IMG/VR virus record: IMGVR_UViG_3300035698_001664
Location: 1-20,135 of that record
Source: a virus
Length of the DNA stretch: 20,135 nucleotides
Direction: 5' to 3' (one strand)
Part shown: piece by piece, positions 1,160-14,501 of the stretch
Layout: every line of letters starts with the position of its first letter
Position numbering within the stretch: the first letter of the stretch is position 1
Notes under the pieces: generated by a model
Databases searched by the model: none
The model's input: only the letters and a program-made list of their open reading frames with translations
Told to the model about the DNA's origin: nothing
Position numbers and translations under genes: made by a program

Positions 1160-1960
1160 TTAGTTTTCATCTACTAATATACTATTTTTATTTATGTAAT
1201 CTTCTTTAATTAAATGCATTTCATATCTCACAGAAACCTGAACATTTCCGCTGCCAGCAATTCGAACTACCTGTACCCTTACATCCGATTTAGGTGGTAG
1301 ACGAAGAGGATTAGATAGGGGGGGCGCAATAAAGTTTTCAACTGTACTCACTCGGTCTCTAGTTATCCATGATCCCTCTTGAGCTCTAGTCTGTAAATCA
1401 AACTGAACTTGGTCATTATTTAAAGCACCGTAATTAATATCTCTAATGAAAGCAAAAAAACCAGAAGGGACGGTATAATGGGATTTAAAAGTGGCACCAG
1501 ATAAAGTGGGAATAGACGCTTGAATTGTTGCGGAAGAAGACGATGTTGCACTTATAGTCCCTGTATTAACGCCCCCAGAACCAACTGTATCGACTCTCAT
1601 TCTAATTATTCTTATAAATGAAGACGTTGTTAATACATTTGTGGTTCCATTAAGAGTAATAGTCTCCCTAATTCCCTTATAATTAGCGTCTAAACCAAAT
1701 ATTGTAACAGTTCTTGCACCCGTTCCTAATGGAGAACCATCATCTGATGCCGATGATGAAACAATATTCATGGTTTCGTCTGAAGTAAGGTACTGAAGAA
1801 CGCCGCCGTTACTCCACACGTCTTCTACAACGGCAACTACAGATGAGTTGAACCCATATTTACTTACCCCTTCTATAAAAGGTACATGCCTTGCTGCAAC
1901 TTTTAAATTAAAATCCCAGTCAGACCACGTTGCTGAATTTGATTTATTACCTAATGGCAT
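1160..1960 (-). CDS. Beta-rich virion structural protein
   Basis: A 266-aa protein rich in Ser, Thr, Val and Gly with alternating hydrophobic strands. It contains TGARTVTIFGLDANYKGI followed by ETITLNGTT and, later, FIRIIRMRV and GSGGVNTGTI. I recognise this pattern from virion proteins of aquatic podo- and siphophages, but its function there is not known to me. The C-terminal half (VPSGFFAFIRDINYG, SDVRVQVVRIAGSG, VSVRYEMHLIKEDY) looks like a jelly-roll-type appendage. A very strong AAGGAGGA lies just before the ATG. It sits between two other tail-fibre-type genes. A role in the tail or capsid surface is inferred. Confidence 0.75.
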   Translation of the reverse strand: MPLGNKSNSATWSDWDFNLKVAARHVPFIEGVSKYGFNSSVVAVVEDVWSNGGVLQYLTSDETMNIVSSSASDDGSPLGTGARTVTIFGLDANYKGIRETITLNGTTNVLTTSSFIRIIRMRVDTVGSGGVNTGTISATSSSSATIQASIPTLSGATFKSHYTVPSGFFAFIRDINYGALNNDQVQFDLQTRAQEGSWITRDRVSTVENFIAPPLSNPLRLPPKSDVRVQVVRIAGSGNVQVSVRYEMHLIKEDYINKNSILVDEN

Positions 1961-1994
1961 GTATTCCTCCTTTTAATTTAGTAAAAAACTGTGT

Positions 1995-2363
1995 TTAACC
2001 TTGTTTTACAATCATATAGTTTATGATTGATACGTCGCCCGTAATAGTTGTTGATCCATCAGCAGGGTCTAGGGCTGTTACAATAAAGCTTGTTGATGCT
2101 GTTTGGGCTGTTATCGTTAAACTGCCTAGAGCTGTAGAACTATTCTCATCTGCTCGTGTTATAAATATTCTATCTGTTGCGCCTAATGTAGTATTTGCAA
2201 TTGTTACAGTTCCGCTTACTAGTGTAGCTTGTCCTACGGCACTTGATGACGAAACAATTCCCTGATTAACTGAGAAGTCGACTGGATTAAGTTGAACATC
2301 TCCCTGAACTGTTGTACTTCCTGAAATTCGCCCTGTATAGGCTAAAGGGTTTCGATCTGACAT
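1995..2363 (-). CDS. Small tail-fibre knob-type protein
   Basis: A 122-aa protein. Its C-terminal two thirds follow a pattern common at the ends of phage fibre proteins: GQATLVSGTVTIANT, then RIFITRADE, SLTITAQTASTSFIV, and a closing INYMIVKQG strand. In other phages this module usually forms the distal tip of a fibre; here it is a stand-alone short protein with about 40 residues in front (TGRISGSTTVQGDV). AGGAGAA is well placed before the ATG. The 57 bases between this gene and the larger gene upstream (2421) are AT-rich and show no clear terminator. A trimeric fibre-tip or accessory role is inferred from the module only. Confidence 0.75.
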   Translation of the reverse strand: MSDRNPLAYTGRISGSTTVQGDVQLNPVDFSVNQGIVSSSSAVGQATLVSGTVTIANTTLGATDRIFITRADENSSTALGSLTITAQTASTSFIVTALDPADGSTTITGDVSIINYMIVKQG

Positions 2364-6925: not shown

Positions 6926-7478
6926 CTGCCTGTCCTATGTATCTCAGATGTCCGATTAAAGTGCCTGCTGCTACGATACCTTGATTGGCAGTTGTAAAGC
7001 CTGAGCCTACGTTCCAGAATTCACCTCTATAGGTGTCTGATATGCCATTGACCACGATTTCGGTGCCCCCAGTGTATGTTATCACTGAAGACTGCACGAC
7101 ACCCACGAACGGTTTATCGTTGCTTAATGCAACTTTGTATGGGAGTTCTACATATAAATTTCCTGCTGCGGCTCCTGAACCGCTCCAGGCAACATCGAAC
7201 CAGACATCTGTGATGATTCCCTGTCGTAATGCCCAACCTGATTGGTGTGTGTAAGTAAAAGTACCTTCTGTACTGGTTCCTTTCAGAATAGGTATCCAAT
7301 TTTGATTTCCTACACCATGATCGGCTCTAATATCACCGTTTGTTGCCTGCGCAATGTTTTCATACATCTGCTGTAAGGAAAAGTTAAGCTCACGTAGGTA
7401 CTTTTCTAAGTCTTCAGGCTTACCGCTTTTAATATAATCTGAATGCAAAGGTAATATAATATTAGAGGGTAACGTCAA
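6912..7478 (-). CDS. Tail/virion protein, fibre-type (TTG start)
   Basis: A 188-aa protein. A helical N-terminal part (DYIKSGKPEDLEKYLRELN, a coiled-coil-like stretch ending near residue 44) precedes a beta-rich part with WIPILKGTSTEGTFTYTHQS, GWALRQGIITDVWFDVAWSG and AAGNLYVELPY. That beta part resembles a surface module seen in many phage fibre and spike proteins. No ATG fits the start: the frame opens with TTG at 7478, which overlaps the stop of the 778-aa gene as TTGA, and GGAGGGAG lies about 9 bases upstream. This coupling supports the TTG. A role in the tail or fibres is inferred from the module and position. Confidence 0.7.
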   Translation of the reverse strand: MTLPSNIILPLHSDYIKSGKPEDLEKYLRELNFSLQQMYENIAQATNGDIRADHGVGNQNWIPILKGTSTEGTFTYTHQSGWALRQGIITDVWFDVAWSGSGAAAGNLYVELPYKVALSNDKPFVGVVQSSVITYTGGTEIVVNGISDTYRGEFWNVGSGFTTANQGIVAAGTLIGHLRYIGQADERA

Positions 7479-9811
7479 TTGATTGTTCTCCCTCCTCTAG
7501 GCCTGAAATGAGGCTTGAAACCTTCGATCTGTAACGGTGTATTTAACCCACCACTACTTATCCCCACTCTATGTTGAAAGCCAATTCCACCAGCCAATAT
7601 TCGCTTCCACGATTTAGTTCTGTAGAATTTCTTTCTTACAATTTGTCCACCTGTTGTGAATGCGGTGAATGCAGTTGAATCTATACCGTCTAGCGTGAAG
7701 TTATTAGCGTCTACAACTGTTACAAGATATCCATCATCTATTTCAGTCATACCTTGCACTCCATAAATATAAATCAGGTCTCCTGTAACCAATCCATTCT
7801 CATGAGCCGTGACGACTGCGGGATTTGCCTGGGTAATATTGGAAACACATGCTACAAAATCAAGAGGAGGAAGAATGTCGCTTTGTCGCGTCTCATATGG
7901 AACGGTAGATGTGTCTTTATAGAATTCAACTGTAATCTGAGTCTTCTTATCCACATTAACATAGATATCCAAGTAGTTCAGTTGTGCCTCTTTTCCCTCT
8001 GGTTGGTAAGGATTCCAAGAATTAGTCAGTAATTTACATTCTATCGCTGATCCACTATCAGTTCCTTGGGTTTGCATTATATATACAATCCCACCGGTAT
8101 CACCGCCTAAAAATGAATCTGCATTTTCCTGCCAGAAAAACGATTGAAGTGTTTCTTCGTCGTAATCTAAAAGGTTGTTATCTAGATCAGGAGCTATGAA
8201 ATCATTTAAACCGAAATCTTCAGCAAAATTTCCGTATCCTAGGCAATTCATTGCTATCTCATATTGTGAATAAGCCGATGAATCGTCATCTAGTATGAGG
8301 GCTTTTGAGTTTTCCGTATCGTCATTATTTGCATAGAGGGTCCATGTACGTCGATTATCGAAATCTCGTAGGGCGTAGACTTTCTGAAACTCGTCTACAT
8401 TAACTTCATCCGTAGTAAAATCTTGGATTCTATCGTCTACGCGCCTTGTTTCTACTCCGTCAGTTGCTGTAATTCCTCTAACTCCGAGAGCCACCACATA
8501 TCTGTCGTACTGGACTGATGCCATTTTTCCACCACAAGCACGATAGTCATTGATTTTATCCCATCGGAAAGGAAGAGCGGGGTCAGGTACTGGACGGAGC
8601 GTCCATACGGAGTTTGTAAAAAATACAATGATAACATCTTGTAACGACCTCGCTGAAATTATCTGTTCTCCAGTCGGTGCATCTACAAATCCCCCTCCAC
8701 CAGCGACGGTATCATCCCAGTTTGAGGGTCCTTGGGCTTGGCACCATCGAGCTCTCTGAGGAAAGTTTGATGTCGTAGCTGGACTGGAGTCATATTCATA
8801 TACATTAAGAACAACTAACCGCTGCTTAATTGCGAATAGTAGCTTTCCACCATATAGGGTACGAGTTCCTCCTAAAGCAGGAGTAAAAATAGTAGTGGAG
8901 TTTGTAGAAGTACTTGAATCATAATATCTGATTCCGTCGAGTGAAACACCATCGTACTCCTTTCCATTTGTAAAATACATTCGATTGGTTGAATTTGAAT
9001 GCTGCCAGTTTTCTGTCCAGATGTACTCTGTGTCATCTCCTGACATCACGTCATTAGCGTCTAATGGATTGAATCTATCGTTTACACCATCGTAAACAGC
9101 GGCGTTTGTTGTATCAAAGGCGAGAGTTTCCTTAGTTCCATCAGGTGAGTAATAACGGAATATTCCCATTATTCTATCGGCGGTGAATAAATTAGCGTTT
9201 CCACCCGATGTATAGGCTGTATAAGCTGAACCATCAATACCACTTAGCTCAAAAGTAGTGGCCGTAGCATTAGCTACGGTATAAGTGTTTCCGTTCAGCT
9301 CCACCATTCCGTTAACATTGGTGATAATTACAAATTCACCATCAGCAAAATTGTTAGATGCGGTGACTACCGGGGGGTTGGCTGCTGTGATTCCTGTAAT
9401 TGCACCCGCTGGAGACACACAGATGCCCCCCCCTGACGTATATGCTGTAAAGCCTGTACTATCAGTACCTGAAAGCTCAAGCGTGTTAGCAGTAACGTTA
9501 GCAGCCGTGTATGTATTCCCATTAAGCTCAACCATTCCATTAACATTGCTTATAAGAACGGTTTGCCCATTATCTATTCCATGTGCTACCGATGTTACTA
9601 CAGCAGGATTCGCTTGGGTAACGCCTGTTATCAAGGTTCCCTTACAATGAGACATATACCCAAAAACTCGGTATCCACTTCTCTTTTGTATAAACCCGTG
9701 TCTTACATGAAAATTATTGAGCTCCCTAAAAGAATCAGGAGGAGCCATCCAAGGAGATACGTCTGTATCTATGCCCGTTTGAAAGGGAGCTATCAATAAT
9801 CCTTGAGTCAT
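7475..9811 (-). CDS. Tail / P22 gp10-like stabilisation protein with three FCCH-like modules
   Basis: A 778-aa protein. The opening, FQTGIDTDVSPWMAPPDSFRELNNFHVRHGFIQKR-like with a following GYRVFG (residues 10-51), matches the start of podovirus tail and packaged-DNA stabilisation proteins (F..G...D..P......F..L.N..V..G...KR.GY). FCCH-like modules occupy about 60-130, 137-207 and 655-725. Between them is a long beta-rich region with WxxxN and GGxxxSVQYDRYVVALG repeats that could form a propeller or tube ring. The C-terminus is basic (FKPHFRPRGGRTIN). The start overlaps the upstream stop as TAATG, with GGAGGT before it. Coming soon after the adaptor, it probably forms the tail tube or the plug below the portal. 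The family name is by pattern and moderately sure; the virion role is likely. Confidence 0.75.
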   Translation of the reverse strand: MTQGLLIAPFQTGIDTDVSPWMAPPDSFRELNNFHVRHGFIQKRSGYRVFGYMSHCKGTLITGVTQANPAVVTSVAHGIDNGQTVLISNVNGMVELNGNTYTAANVTANTLELSGTDSTGFTAYTSGGGICVSPAGAITGITAANPPVVTASNNFADGEFVIITNVNGMVELNGNTYTVANATATTFELSGIDGSAYTAYTSGGNANLFTADRIMGIFRYYSPDGTKETLAFDTTNAAVYDGVNDRFNPLDANDVMSGDDTEYIWTENWQHSNSTNRMYFTNGKEYDGVSLDGIRYYDSSTSTNSTTIFTPALGGTRTLYGGKLLFAIKQRLVVLNVYEYDSSPATTSNFPQRARWCQAQGPSNWDDTVAGGGGFVDAPTGEQIISARSLQDVIIVFFTNSVWTLRPVPDPALPFRWDKINDYRACGGKMASVQYDRYVVALGVRGITATDGVETRRVDDRIQDFTTDEVNVDEFQKVYALRDFDNRRTWTLYANNDDTENSKALILDDDSSAYSQYEIAMNCLGYGNFAEDFGLNDFIAPDLDNNLLDYDEETLQSFFWQENADSFLGGDTGGIVYIMQTQGTDSGSAIECKLLTNSWNPYQPEGKEAQLNYLDIYVNVDKKTQITVEFYKDTSTVPYETRQSDILPPLDFVACVSNITQANPAVVTAHENGLVTGDLIYIYGVQGMTEIDDGYLVTVVDANNFTLDGIDSTAFTAFTTGGQIVRKKFYRTKSWKRILAGGIGFQHRVGISSGGLNTPLQIEGFKPHFRPRGGRTIN
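9197..9634 (-). repeat. Tandem FCCH-like coding repeat
   Basis: Two adjacent copies of an approximately 70-codon module encode ITGVTQANPAVVT...GMVELNGNTYT...TSGG and then ITGITAANPPVVT...GMVELNGNTYT...TSGG. The copies remain similar at DNA level: the stretches around 9280-9320 and 9505-9545 both encode NVNGMVELNGNTYT with closely related bases. This points to a fairly recent internal duplication. Confidence 0.75.
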
Positions 9812-12144: not shown

Positions 12145-12747
12145 TTAAACTACAGGTTCTTCGCCAAAGACGATGGCCACCATAGATTCAGAGTTTCCTC
12201 CAACCGCTGATGTTCCAAGAGTCACTCCGCGAATAGCAAAGTTTTCTGTTGGAATTGGATCGCCGTTAGTATCAGACACACGAGAGACCACACCACCGCT
12301 AACGTAAACGTTATCTGAAGTAGTGTTCTGGTCTAAAGTGATAGTCGTAGCTGTCAATGAAGCGATCGTGTAGGTCGCTCTATTGAGGTCTAAAGCTGGA
12401 TCAGCACCGTCATCAGCACACTCAGCAACTTTAATAGTGTCACCAGCTGCAAACCCAAAAACGGCTGTGTCAGTACAAGTAATGACGCCAGGACTAGCAT
12501 TAGTGAAACCGCTCATAGCTGCACCGTAAGACGCATTCTGAGCTAGTGGTGTTACACCATTAGTAGTTGTGTATGCTGGAACTCCTACGTTGAAAATAGA
12601 AGCGTCAGCCATGTTAGCTGTCCACGCAAGCGCAGCAACTGTAGTTAGATTGAAAATGTCAATCTTAGCTGTTGTGAAACCCACATCGAGGTTTCTAGCA
12701 ACGGCTGTGCTTGGATTAGTCCAAGCAAATCTTTTTACTTGTGCCAT
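12145..12747 (-). CDS. Capsid-associated (possible decoration) protein with diverged FCCH-like module
   Basis: A 200-aa Ala/Thr/Val-rich, Lys-poor protein encoded directly after the major capsid gene; its Shine-Dalgarno AAGGAGGT overlaps the capsid stop. The N-terminal part reads TTAKIDIFNLTTVAALAWTA. Residues about 80-155 resemble the FCCH-like module of the tail genes (GFTNASPGVITC, then AAGDTIKVAEC, YTIASLTATTITLDQ, YVSGGVV), but diverged and with a small insert. The C-terminus (NFAIRGVTLGTSAVGGNSESMVAIVFGEE) is beta-rich. Being between the capsid gene and a strong terminator implies expression at similar level, so a decoration or cement role is the best guess. No direct family match is claimed. 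Confidence 0.7.
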   Translation of the reverse strand: MAQVKRFAWTNPSTAVARNLDVGFTTAKIDIFNLTTVAALAWTANMADASIFNVGVPAYTTTNGVTPLAQNASYGAAMSGFTNASPGVITCTDTAVFGFAAGDTIKVAECADDGADPALDLNRATYTIASLTATTITLDQNTTSDNVYVSGGVVSRVSDTNGDPIPTENFAIRGVTLGTSAVGGNSESMVAIVFGEEPVV

Positions 12748-12759
12748 TGTTTTACCTCC

Positions 12760-13417
12760 TTAGGAATGGGTTGCCATTAAGTTCAACATAAACGCATCAT
12801 TCAAAATCCTGGCGACGAATGGATGCTGCCATCCAACGGAACCACGTTGATGCAACGGATCGGCTGCACCTGCTGAACCTAGTGGCTCAATGTAGAACTC
12901 ACCACTTTCGCTGCCTAAATGCACTACTGCATAAGCTTCTTTACCGATGATGAAGTTGTTATAAACAGCAGGTGAAGCAGCACTTACGCTACCAACTGAT
13001 GTGTACAACCATCTAACGTTAGATGTAGAACCCCATTCGTCGTCAAGAACACGACTGTTGTTTGGATAATTTGCAGATGACAGGAACGAAGCAACCGCTT
13101 CTAAATCATCAAGTAAATCAGTGTCCAAATAACCGAAAAAAGCTGGTCTTACAGGAGCTGTAGCAAACGCATCAGTTCCAGAAATTACAGCAGAAATCAT
13201 CTCGGCATCATTACCAAGTAAAGTTTTGATAGCCGTATCAATATCGGCCTTACTTAATTCGGTAGGAGTGTTTCCGTTAGTACCGTTTGCACATTGAAGA
13301 ACGGAAGTGGTGCTCGCAAGTACGTCACGAGTAACTTCATCCATCGTTTGAGCCAAGTTTTGTGCAAGTAGACGAGCAGATTCGTTTAAGCATTCTGTTA
13401 CTTTCGGCTTAGCTATG
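12760..13417 (-). CDS. Major capsid protein, exon 2 (C-terminal two thirds)
   Basis: This exon joins exon 1 (14191-14501) after removal of the intron and gives about 322 aa in total. It encodes VTECLNESARLLAQNLAQTMDEVTRDVLAS, the helix of N4-gp56-type capsid proteins (family form: DPVLTEA.ELLGEQ.G.TLDTL.R.VL). Next come LSKADIDTAIKTLLGNDAEM, FFGYLDTDLLDDLE, DEWGSTSNVRWLYTS and YNNFIIGKEAYAVVHLG, ending in FVARILNDAFMLNLMATHS and TAA. The HK97-like fold forms the capsid shell. The open frame continues upstream to 14091, but residues before IAKPKV come from the intron and do not resemble a capsid protein. The 3' splice site is uncertain: the G at 13418 keeps the frame and standard chemistry, while the G at 13401 gives a protein six residues shorter (316 aa). 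Confidence 0.85.
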
Positions 13418-13531
13418 CCTACTGACCATATTTCTATGGCGGGGATACCTCTTCGGGTTTCCCTCTGTGGGTTTCCTCCACAGTTCAGACTATCGCATCC
13501 CTTTCGGGTTTCCTCGTTTAGTCGTTTAGCG

Positions 13532-13560
13532 TGGTCATTAATGTTGTCTTCGTTTATACT
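13532..13560 (+). promoter_or_regulatory. Sigma70-type promoter for the intron endonuclease
   Basis: TGGTCA (13532-13537, four of six matches to TTGACA), a 17-base spacer and TATACT (13555-13560, five of six). A start near 13567 would leave a short leader carrying the GAAAGGA ribosome binding site at about 13576-13582, ahead of the ATG at 13588. The match is by eye. Confidence 0.4.
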
Positions 13561-13587
13561 ATATTGGTACTTAACGAAAGGATTTAC

Positions 13588-14100
13588 ATGCCAAAACTTA
13601 AACCTTATGATTTGTCCAAAGTTACTTCTTTTGATTTGGCCTATTTGGCTGGATTCATTGATGGCGAGGGTTGTTTTTTCATTGGCCATCACGTCAACGT
13701 TTCCAAATGTACAGGTAATAAATATCCCAATTACCATACATGTCTTAAAATCTCTAACAACTGTATGGAAGTACTTGAATGGATTCTTAAAACTTTTGGT
13801 GGGCGCATAACTAAATATAATAAAAATCGAATGGAAGGAAGAAATTCCTACACATTTGAAGTTTATATGACTGGAAATTTGCTTACAGATATTACCGAAA
13901 TACTGCTTCCATATCTTAAAGTTAAACGTTCCCAAGCTGAAGTTATGTTGAAAATGCGCCAAACATTCTCTCGAACAGGAAGCTGTGGGCCTGTTAAACA
14001 GCCTCCACATATTCTTGAAATTCGAGGAAAGCTTAGAGAGCAAATGACTCAACTTAACTCTAGATTTAAGAAACATACTTATACTAACCATTTTAAATAA
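13588..14100 (+). CDS. LAGLIDADG homing endonuclease (antisense inside intron)
   Basis: A 170-aa single-motif LAGLIDADG protein and the only plus-strand gene in the window. The motif LAYLAGFIDGEG is at residues 17-28, with the active-site acidic residue at E27 by family alignment. It is followed by the beta strands and helix typical of the fold (TCLKISNNCMEVLEWILKTF, GGRITKY, SYTFEVYM) and a basic C-terminus. With one motif it would act as a homodimer cutting an intronless capsid allele and so spread the intron. A start at 13588 is preferred over an upstream Met at 13531: GAAAGGA lies just before it, the protein motif begins soon after, and a promoter-like pair at 13532-13560 lies upstream. 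It is opposite to the intron RNA, so it is not made from the capsid transcript. No terminator is seen after TAA. Confidence 0.88.
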   Translation: MPKLKPYDLSKVTSFDLAYLAGFIDGEGCFFIGHHVNVSKCTGNKYPNYHTCLKISNNCMEVLEWILKTFGGRITKYNKNRMEGRNSYTFEVYMTGNLLTDITEILLPYLKVKRSQAEVMLKMRQTFSRTGSCGPVKQPPHILEIRGKLREQMTQLNSRFKKHTYTNHFK

Positions 14101-14190
14101 CCTTCGCCCATGTTTCCATATTAAGCAGCTTCCTGCATAACGTAGGGGTCCATGTCAATTAGAGGAAATTTATACAGGGCCTGTACGTTA

Positions 14191-14501
14191 ACCCTGTCTT
14201 CTACTGTTAGCTCAACTTGGTTAGTGATAGTGACAAAGTTACCGTAGAAATCTACGCGTGCTTTGATATCAGTAGCACTTAACGGTGCTCCTGGAGGTGT
14301 TATTCCATCAACCAACGGAATCGGAACCGTTGAAAGTCGGGAATATCGTCTAAAGACGATTGTGTCCCCCATCTTTTCGGGAAGTACTCTTTTCTGAGCA
14401 AAACGAGTGTGGATAAGCGCTGGATATGCAGTCATCAACAAAAGTCTGTCATAGTACTCCCGAACAGCTGGAGGCAATACTGCTACTGTGGTAATAGCCA
14501 T
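14191..14501 (-). CDS. Major capsid protein, exon 1 (N-terminal third)
   Basis: Residues 1-104 of the major capsid protein (N4-gp56-type). The pattern is AVREYYDRLLLMTAYPALIHTRFAQKR, then KMGDTIVFRRYSRLSTVPIPLVDGITP, and VDFYGNFVTITNQVELTVEDRV, matching the family (YD..LL..A.P.L....F.....LP...G.T...RR......L.EG.TP......Y G.....T D.). AAGGAG precedes the ATG and overlaps the scaffold stop. The frame runs past the splice site for 22 codons into the intron and stops at 14121 (ending PYVMQEAA). Those residues have no place in the family pattern, so unspliced mRNA would give a truncated, surely inactive capsid protein. Confidence 0.88.

Follow-up and report, generated by a model that had tools for sequence, protein, structure and literature searches.

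The mycobacteriophage LittleE (JF937101, genes 13/14) carries a group I-like intron of approximately 819 bp in its major capsid gene, and both RT-PCR and N-terminal sequencing showed that it is spliced in infected cells (PMC3706429). Some Zeta and Delta crAss-like phages have several group I introns in one major capsid gene, which is broken into five fragments in one genome (PMC7886860). The tape-measure gene of ICP1 harbors multiple introns with swapping endonuclease cargo, and their splicing was detected by RT-PCR (PMC10448857). A first-pass annotation of the DNA studied here had framed phage introns as mostly belonging to non-capsid genes, a framing to be corrected for the capsid-gene introns already described (PMC3706429, PMC7886860).

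We analyzed a stretch of 20,135 nucleotides of viral DNA, hereafter the window. Its capsid locus is best read as a major capsid gene whose codon 104 holds a mobile group I intron, a reading based on sequence comparisons to which we assign a probability of roughly 0.93.

The interrupted capsid gene

The minus strand of the window displayed a podovirus-like structural operon, with a terminase large subunit, a P22-type portal, and then a split capsid gene. As the first-pass annotation had claimed, the two capsid halves are collinear and run in the same direction: both lie on the minus strand and match consecutive parts (22-136 and 132-341) of the phrog_1357 major head protein profile, which is 356 long. 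Neither half had a match in Pfam. The gene is organized as follows:

14191..14501, minus strand: first capsid exon, comprising codons 1-103 plus two bases of codon 104 (phrog_1357, 3.8e-16; alignment to the intronless relative L005)
13391..14190, minus strand: putative group I intron, 800 nt, starting UAACG and ending ...ACAGAAUG (ends set by comparison with intronless relatives, a U ahead of the 5′ site, the final G, and the restored frame; covariation)
12760..13390, minus strand: second capsid exon, from the final base of codon 104 through the stop (phrog_1357, 1.5e-18)

In the alignment to L005, the match of exon 1 stops at 14190 and that of exon 2 begins near 13398. The intron was delimited to 14190-13391 because of this alignment together with the U before the intron, the G at its end, and the reading frame. 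Its borders read ...GACAGGGU^UAACG...ACAGAAUG^CUUAAACGAA, and splicing as U^U...G^C restores the capsid frame. A 5′ site after the second U (GUU^) was rejected, as it shifts the frame. The terminal G (13391, minus strand) is kept in all relatives with an intron at the same site, and the U that closes exon 1, part of the U.G pair of P1, is invariant in the nine introns compared. The interval first proposed, 13401-14191, captured the insertion but missed its ends, by 10 nt on one side and 1 nt on the other.

Once joined, the exons add up to 942 bases encoding a single protein of 313 aa. This predicted product has the same length as the uninterrupted capsid protein of L175, to which it is identical at 296 of 313 residues, including 40 residues across the splice joint. 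The predicted junction in the window capsid exons is GACAGGGT^CTTAAACG, also written GAAGACAGGGT^CTTAAACGAATC. A search for relatives with the second capsid half alone as query returned 80 loci, and in 61 relatives with an uninterrupted capsid gene (across L002-L089) residue 104 is directly followed by residue 105, so that the sequence broken in the window is a conserved stretch present whole in all of them. Capsid homologs containing intron-encoded residues, which the first-pass annotation had named as evidence against its reading, were found neither among these 61 relatives nor in L175, with its 313 aa. We also rejected an intein, since the reading frame of the capsid gene meets a stop 22 codons inside the insertion.

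Other features of this phage group were observed. L175 is a close relative without the intron, and its contig (JAAKFB010000001.1, 36464 bp) is binned in the Chlamydiae MAG K1000_chlam_2. Should the binning be correct, a chlamydia could be the host, and tailed phages of chlamydia would be notable; a misbinned free phage genome is equally possible. By eye, the same contig also has an ORF resembling an HNH-type homing endonuclease (1508-2194, minus strand), which lies antisense between the genes for terminase and portal and may mark a second place where homing genes insert in these phages. In the window, an E1_FCCH-like module (Pfam PF16190) occurs in three structural proteins encoded on the minus strand (593-1150, 7475-9811, and 12145-12747), with three copies in the second and a match below the cut-off in the third. 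Finally, a small protein at 1995-2363 (minus strand) matched the C-terminal domain of a K1 capsule-specific polysaccharide lyase (PF24146, 1.1e-12), which suggests a tail part that binds the host surface.

Intron fold and covariance models

The RNA elements of the intron were assigned as follows, all on the minus strand:

14174..14197: P1, ACAGGGUU (exon/intron) with GGCCCUGU; U.G at the 5′ splice site
14162..14168: 5′ strand of P3, UUUCCUC, pairing with GAGGAAA at 13515-13509; compensatory changes in 5 of 7 pairs
14099..14154: P4, P5, and the 5′ strands of P6/P6a, with the endonuclease gene in the P6 loop
13509..13515: 3′ strand of P3, GAGGAAA
13487..13536: 3′ strands of P6/P6a, P7 (13525-13519 with 13492-13487, one bulged C), and P8 (CCC-GAAA-GGG)
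13406..13483: hairpins P9, P9.1, P9.2, and P9.3

Several of these helices had been proposed from the letters alone, and P1 with its U.G pair (ACAGGGU/GCCCUGU), P3, P7, P8 with a GAAA loop, P9, P9.1, and P9.2 were all recovered, to which P9.3 is added. The strands of P3 lie about 650 nt apart in the window. The pairing of P10 is short, about two pairs by eye.

The fold was evaluated on an alignment of nine same-site introns (the window, L004, L012, L055, L082, and L084-L087) with the homing-gene loop left out. Unguided, RNAalifold recovered P1, P3, P4, P5, P6, P8, and the P9 series, while P7, which is interleaved with P3, was placed by hand in the consensus structure. Paired cells amounted to 97.7%, a percentage biased upward because the structure was derived from the same nine sequences, and two-sided compensatory changes, which this bias does not explain, were found in 31 of 63 pairs. 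When one strand was slid by 1-3 columns as a control, 35-46% of cells were paired and two-sided changes were seen in 2-10 pairs. No more than 1 in 500 shuffles attained any of five measures. The two-sided changes are spread over the core (P3, 5 of 7 pairs; P4, 2/4; P5, 2/3; P6/P6a, 5/8; P7, 1/6; P8, 2/3), and compensatory changes are also present in the P9 series. Within P7, an A-U pair, the bulged C, and then a G-C pair are invariant in all nine introns, and by analogy the G-C beside the bulge may be the guanosine site. The intron of L004, which has no ORF and measures 236 nt, folds better than all of its 200 shuffles (z = -4.4). Overall, the locus is best read, as the first-pass annotation had proposed, as a major capsid gene interrupted by a group I intron.

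The generic Rfam model, RF00028, had no match in the window or in the ORF-less L004, at either gathering or permissive E-values, and at both thresholds no group I match was obtained in the clade of the window. The experimentally spliced LittleE intron reaches 30.7 bits with RF00028, below the gathering score, which illustrates how insensitive this model can be to phage introns. We therefore built our own covariance model from the 3′ half of the nine same-site introns, which found the window once and, outside the training set, many further introns at 43-163 bits, located at other positions of the capsid gene and in other phages. A match of 13.6 bits in L071 was treated as chance. One of the introns detected, L099, scored 63.8 bits with our model and, independently, 73.8 bits (E 7.8e-17) with RF00028 over an overlapping stretch. 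With RF00028, the covariance search suggested as a check gave no match for the window or L004 and a strong one for L099, an intron that our model links to them. Since LittleE also falls below the gathering score, the comparative evidence is strong, and L099 provides a link, we do not count the RF00028 miss as a refutation. Because the generic model is blind to this intron family, calls of capsid genes in this phage group will go wrong: standard annotation yields two broken capsid genes and an unexplained antisense ORF.

The antisense gene, probable mobility, and further intron sites

Most of the intron is filled by a LAGLIDADG gene on the opposite strand, a feature that the first-pass annotation did not mention:

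13588..14097, plus strand: gene encoding a 170-aa LAGLIDADG homing endonuclease, antisense to the capsid gene, with the single motif LAGFIDGEG; lies in the P6 loop
13575..13587, plus strand: likely ribosome-binding site (AAAGGA) directly ahead of the start of the endonuclease gene, assigned from sequence and conserved in most relatives

The domain was identified by Pfam (PF00961, 3.5e-8, 34.7 bits against a cut-off of 23.1), and the PDB profile of I-MsoI matched nearly the whole length of the 170-aa protein (8.5e-12). Apart from I/V exchanges, the motif is invariant in seven copies. The dN/dS of the window gene against relatives for which dS could be estimated is 0.10-0.19; across pairwise comparisons of six endonuclease genes, none of which has stops, it is 0.06-0.19 where dS is estimable, with changes mostly at third positions. 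These sequence comparisons indicate that the endonuclease gene is under purifying selection. As cargo at the same site, the gene is intact in six relatives, shortened in L012, and missing from L004. In the wider intron family, LAGLIDADG genes occur in both orientations; antisense placement is common, not a fixed trait. Promoter-like matches for the antisense gene were no more frequent than in shuffled sequence.

The codon-104 intron requires at least nine gains or losses on a tree of capsid residues 105-285, a number that is rough because it is a parsimony count on 181 columns. L004, which has the intron, groups with L066/L068, which do not (support 98/91), and L002 and L003 are identical over residues 105-285, the former with an intron at codon 104 and the latter with one at codon 88 instead. 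Judged from these sequences, such patchy presence is as expected of a mobile element.

This capsid gene is a hot spot for introns at many positions. We found 3′ splice positions near codons 17, 20, 32, 36, 67, 88, 100, 104, 143, 228, and 290, about 11 intron sites in this capsid gene, L077 being left out of the list for its ambiguous intron end. Three interruptions each were found in the capsid genes of L012, L055, and L105. The exons of L012 (261, 38, 12, and 634 nt, the last including a few bases past the stop) join into a complete capsid protein, with a U before each intron; at L012:2245-2525, exons of 38 and 12 nt stand between three successive introns. At codon 88 (L003, L012, L031, L032) a second, weakly related intron was observed (17-25 bits with our model), which in L031 holds an apparent LAGLIDADG-like ORF on the sense strand, by eye. 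Insertions of approximately 900 bp near capsid codon 35 of L038 and L059 had no match to our model and are probably another intron family.

We also scanned 2.9 million viral contigs with a 22-base intron-end signature, which returned 84 stretches. Among the 80 of these 84 that were listed, 44 distinct 3′-exon peptides were assigned through cluster representatives, 37 to capsid clusters (phrog_1357, phrog_283, phrog_1328) and 7 to a tape-measure cluster, an excess of capsids that may be partly ascertainment, as the signature came from capsid introns; the short-exon matches L097/L119 and L108 fall outside this gene assignment. Tape-measure genes of other phages interrupted by the same intron family were observed in L107, L116, L092, L094, L117, L134, and L167. 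We tentatively raise the idea, which we hold at rather less than even odds, that one group I intron lineage has specialized in virion structural genes and mainly in major capsid genes, with about 11 sites here, further sites in other capsid and tape-measure families, stacks of up to three per gene, and exons down to 12 nt. If so, neighboring introns with such short exons may need a set splicing order or shared exon pairings.

Proposed splicing, rival readings, and known systems

Sequence comparison demonstrates the insertion, its ends, a conserved RNA fold, a restored frame, a conserved LAGLIDADG gene in the P6 loop, and a patchy distribution. Based on these findings, we infer that the RNA folds in the late capsid transcript and binds guanosine at P7; a cut would follow after the U of the P1 U.G pair, and exon 1 would be joined to exon 2 after the terminal G, yielding the normal 313-aa capsid protein. 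The endonuclease would be made from separate opposite-strand transcripts, probably at another time than the late capsid mRNA. Because it has one motif, it likely acts as a homodimer, as I-CreI and I-MsoI do. During co-infection it may cut, at the site of insertion, the uninterrupted capsid allele of the other phage, upon which repair would copy the intron in. Introns without an intact gene (L004, 236 nt; L012, shortened gene) could persist as spliceable remnants.

An addition to this explanation, not a replacement for it, is the suggestion in the first-pass annotation that capsid supply might be limited at the splicing step. The location in the gene of what is probably the most abundant virion protein speaks for such a role, yet we consider it unlikely, as most close relatives have no intron, the intron comes and goes on the capsid tree, and the capsid intron of LittleE was reported as efficiently spliced (PMC3706429). 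We deem it very improbable that the intron is a degenerate remnant that no longer splices, with a capsid made from two separate polypeptides or a defective genome. Reading exon 1 into the intron does give a plausible 126-aa protein with a stop, and splicing of the window intron is itself inferred; however, the helices are kept by compensatory changes across nine introns, every same-site intron has the U at its 5′ site and the G at its end, both exons are intact, with 95% identity to a capsid that is not split, and the split lies within a stretch conserved whole in 61 relatives. That the element is chiefly a homing-gene insertion, with the antisense gene as the unit that matters and the RNA incidental, is barely credible: the ORF makes up 64% of the insertion and is strongly conserved, but L004, which has no ORF, retains a complete RNA core in the same position and some family members at other capsid sites have no detected LAGLIDADG gene.

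In an essential and presumably highly expressed gene, the relatives offer a natural series: no intron, an intron with an intact homing gene, one with a decayed gene, one with no gene, and several introns at once. This series makes it testable why capsid genes are favored and how introns split by exons of 12-38 nt are spliced.

The capsid intron of LittleE resembles that of the window in the U before it, the G at its end, and a LAGLIDADG-type gene on the opposite strand. However, LittleE is an unrelated phage, the endonucleases are 24% identical over 105 aa, and its RNA reaches 14.3 bits with our 3′-half model. In LittleE the best matches to the core are all to one side of the endonuclease gene, whereas the gene of the window, placed in the P6 loop, is flanked by core sequence at either end. 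We rejected a placement of the window intron in the LittleE lineage, as both RNA and endonuclease are weakly similar. Zeta and Delta crAss-like phages share with the group of the window the presence of several introns in one capsid gene, but they are large gut phages whose introns were identified mainly by endonuclease domains (PMC7886860). ICP1 likewise has multiple introns in a structural gene, although a different one and with HNH endonucleases. The window endonuclease is, like I-MsoI and I-CreI, a single-motif protein of about 160-170 aa. The genes of those two enzymes reside in introns of organelle rRNA genes, while that of the window lies antisense within a protein-coding gene of a phage. 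Phage capsid introns are thus already known; less expected here are how many sites there are, an exon of 12 nt, and the failure of Rfam to see the introns of this clade.
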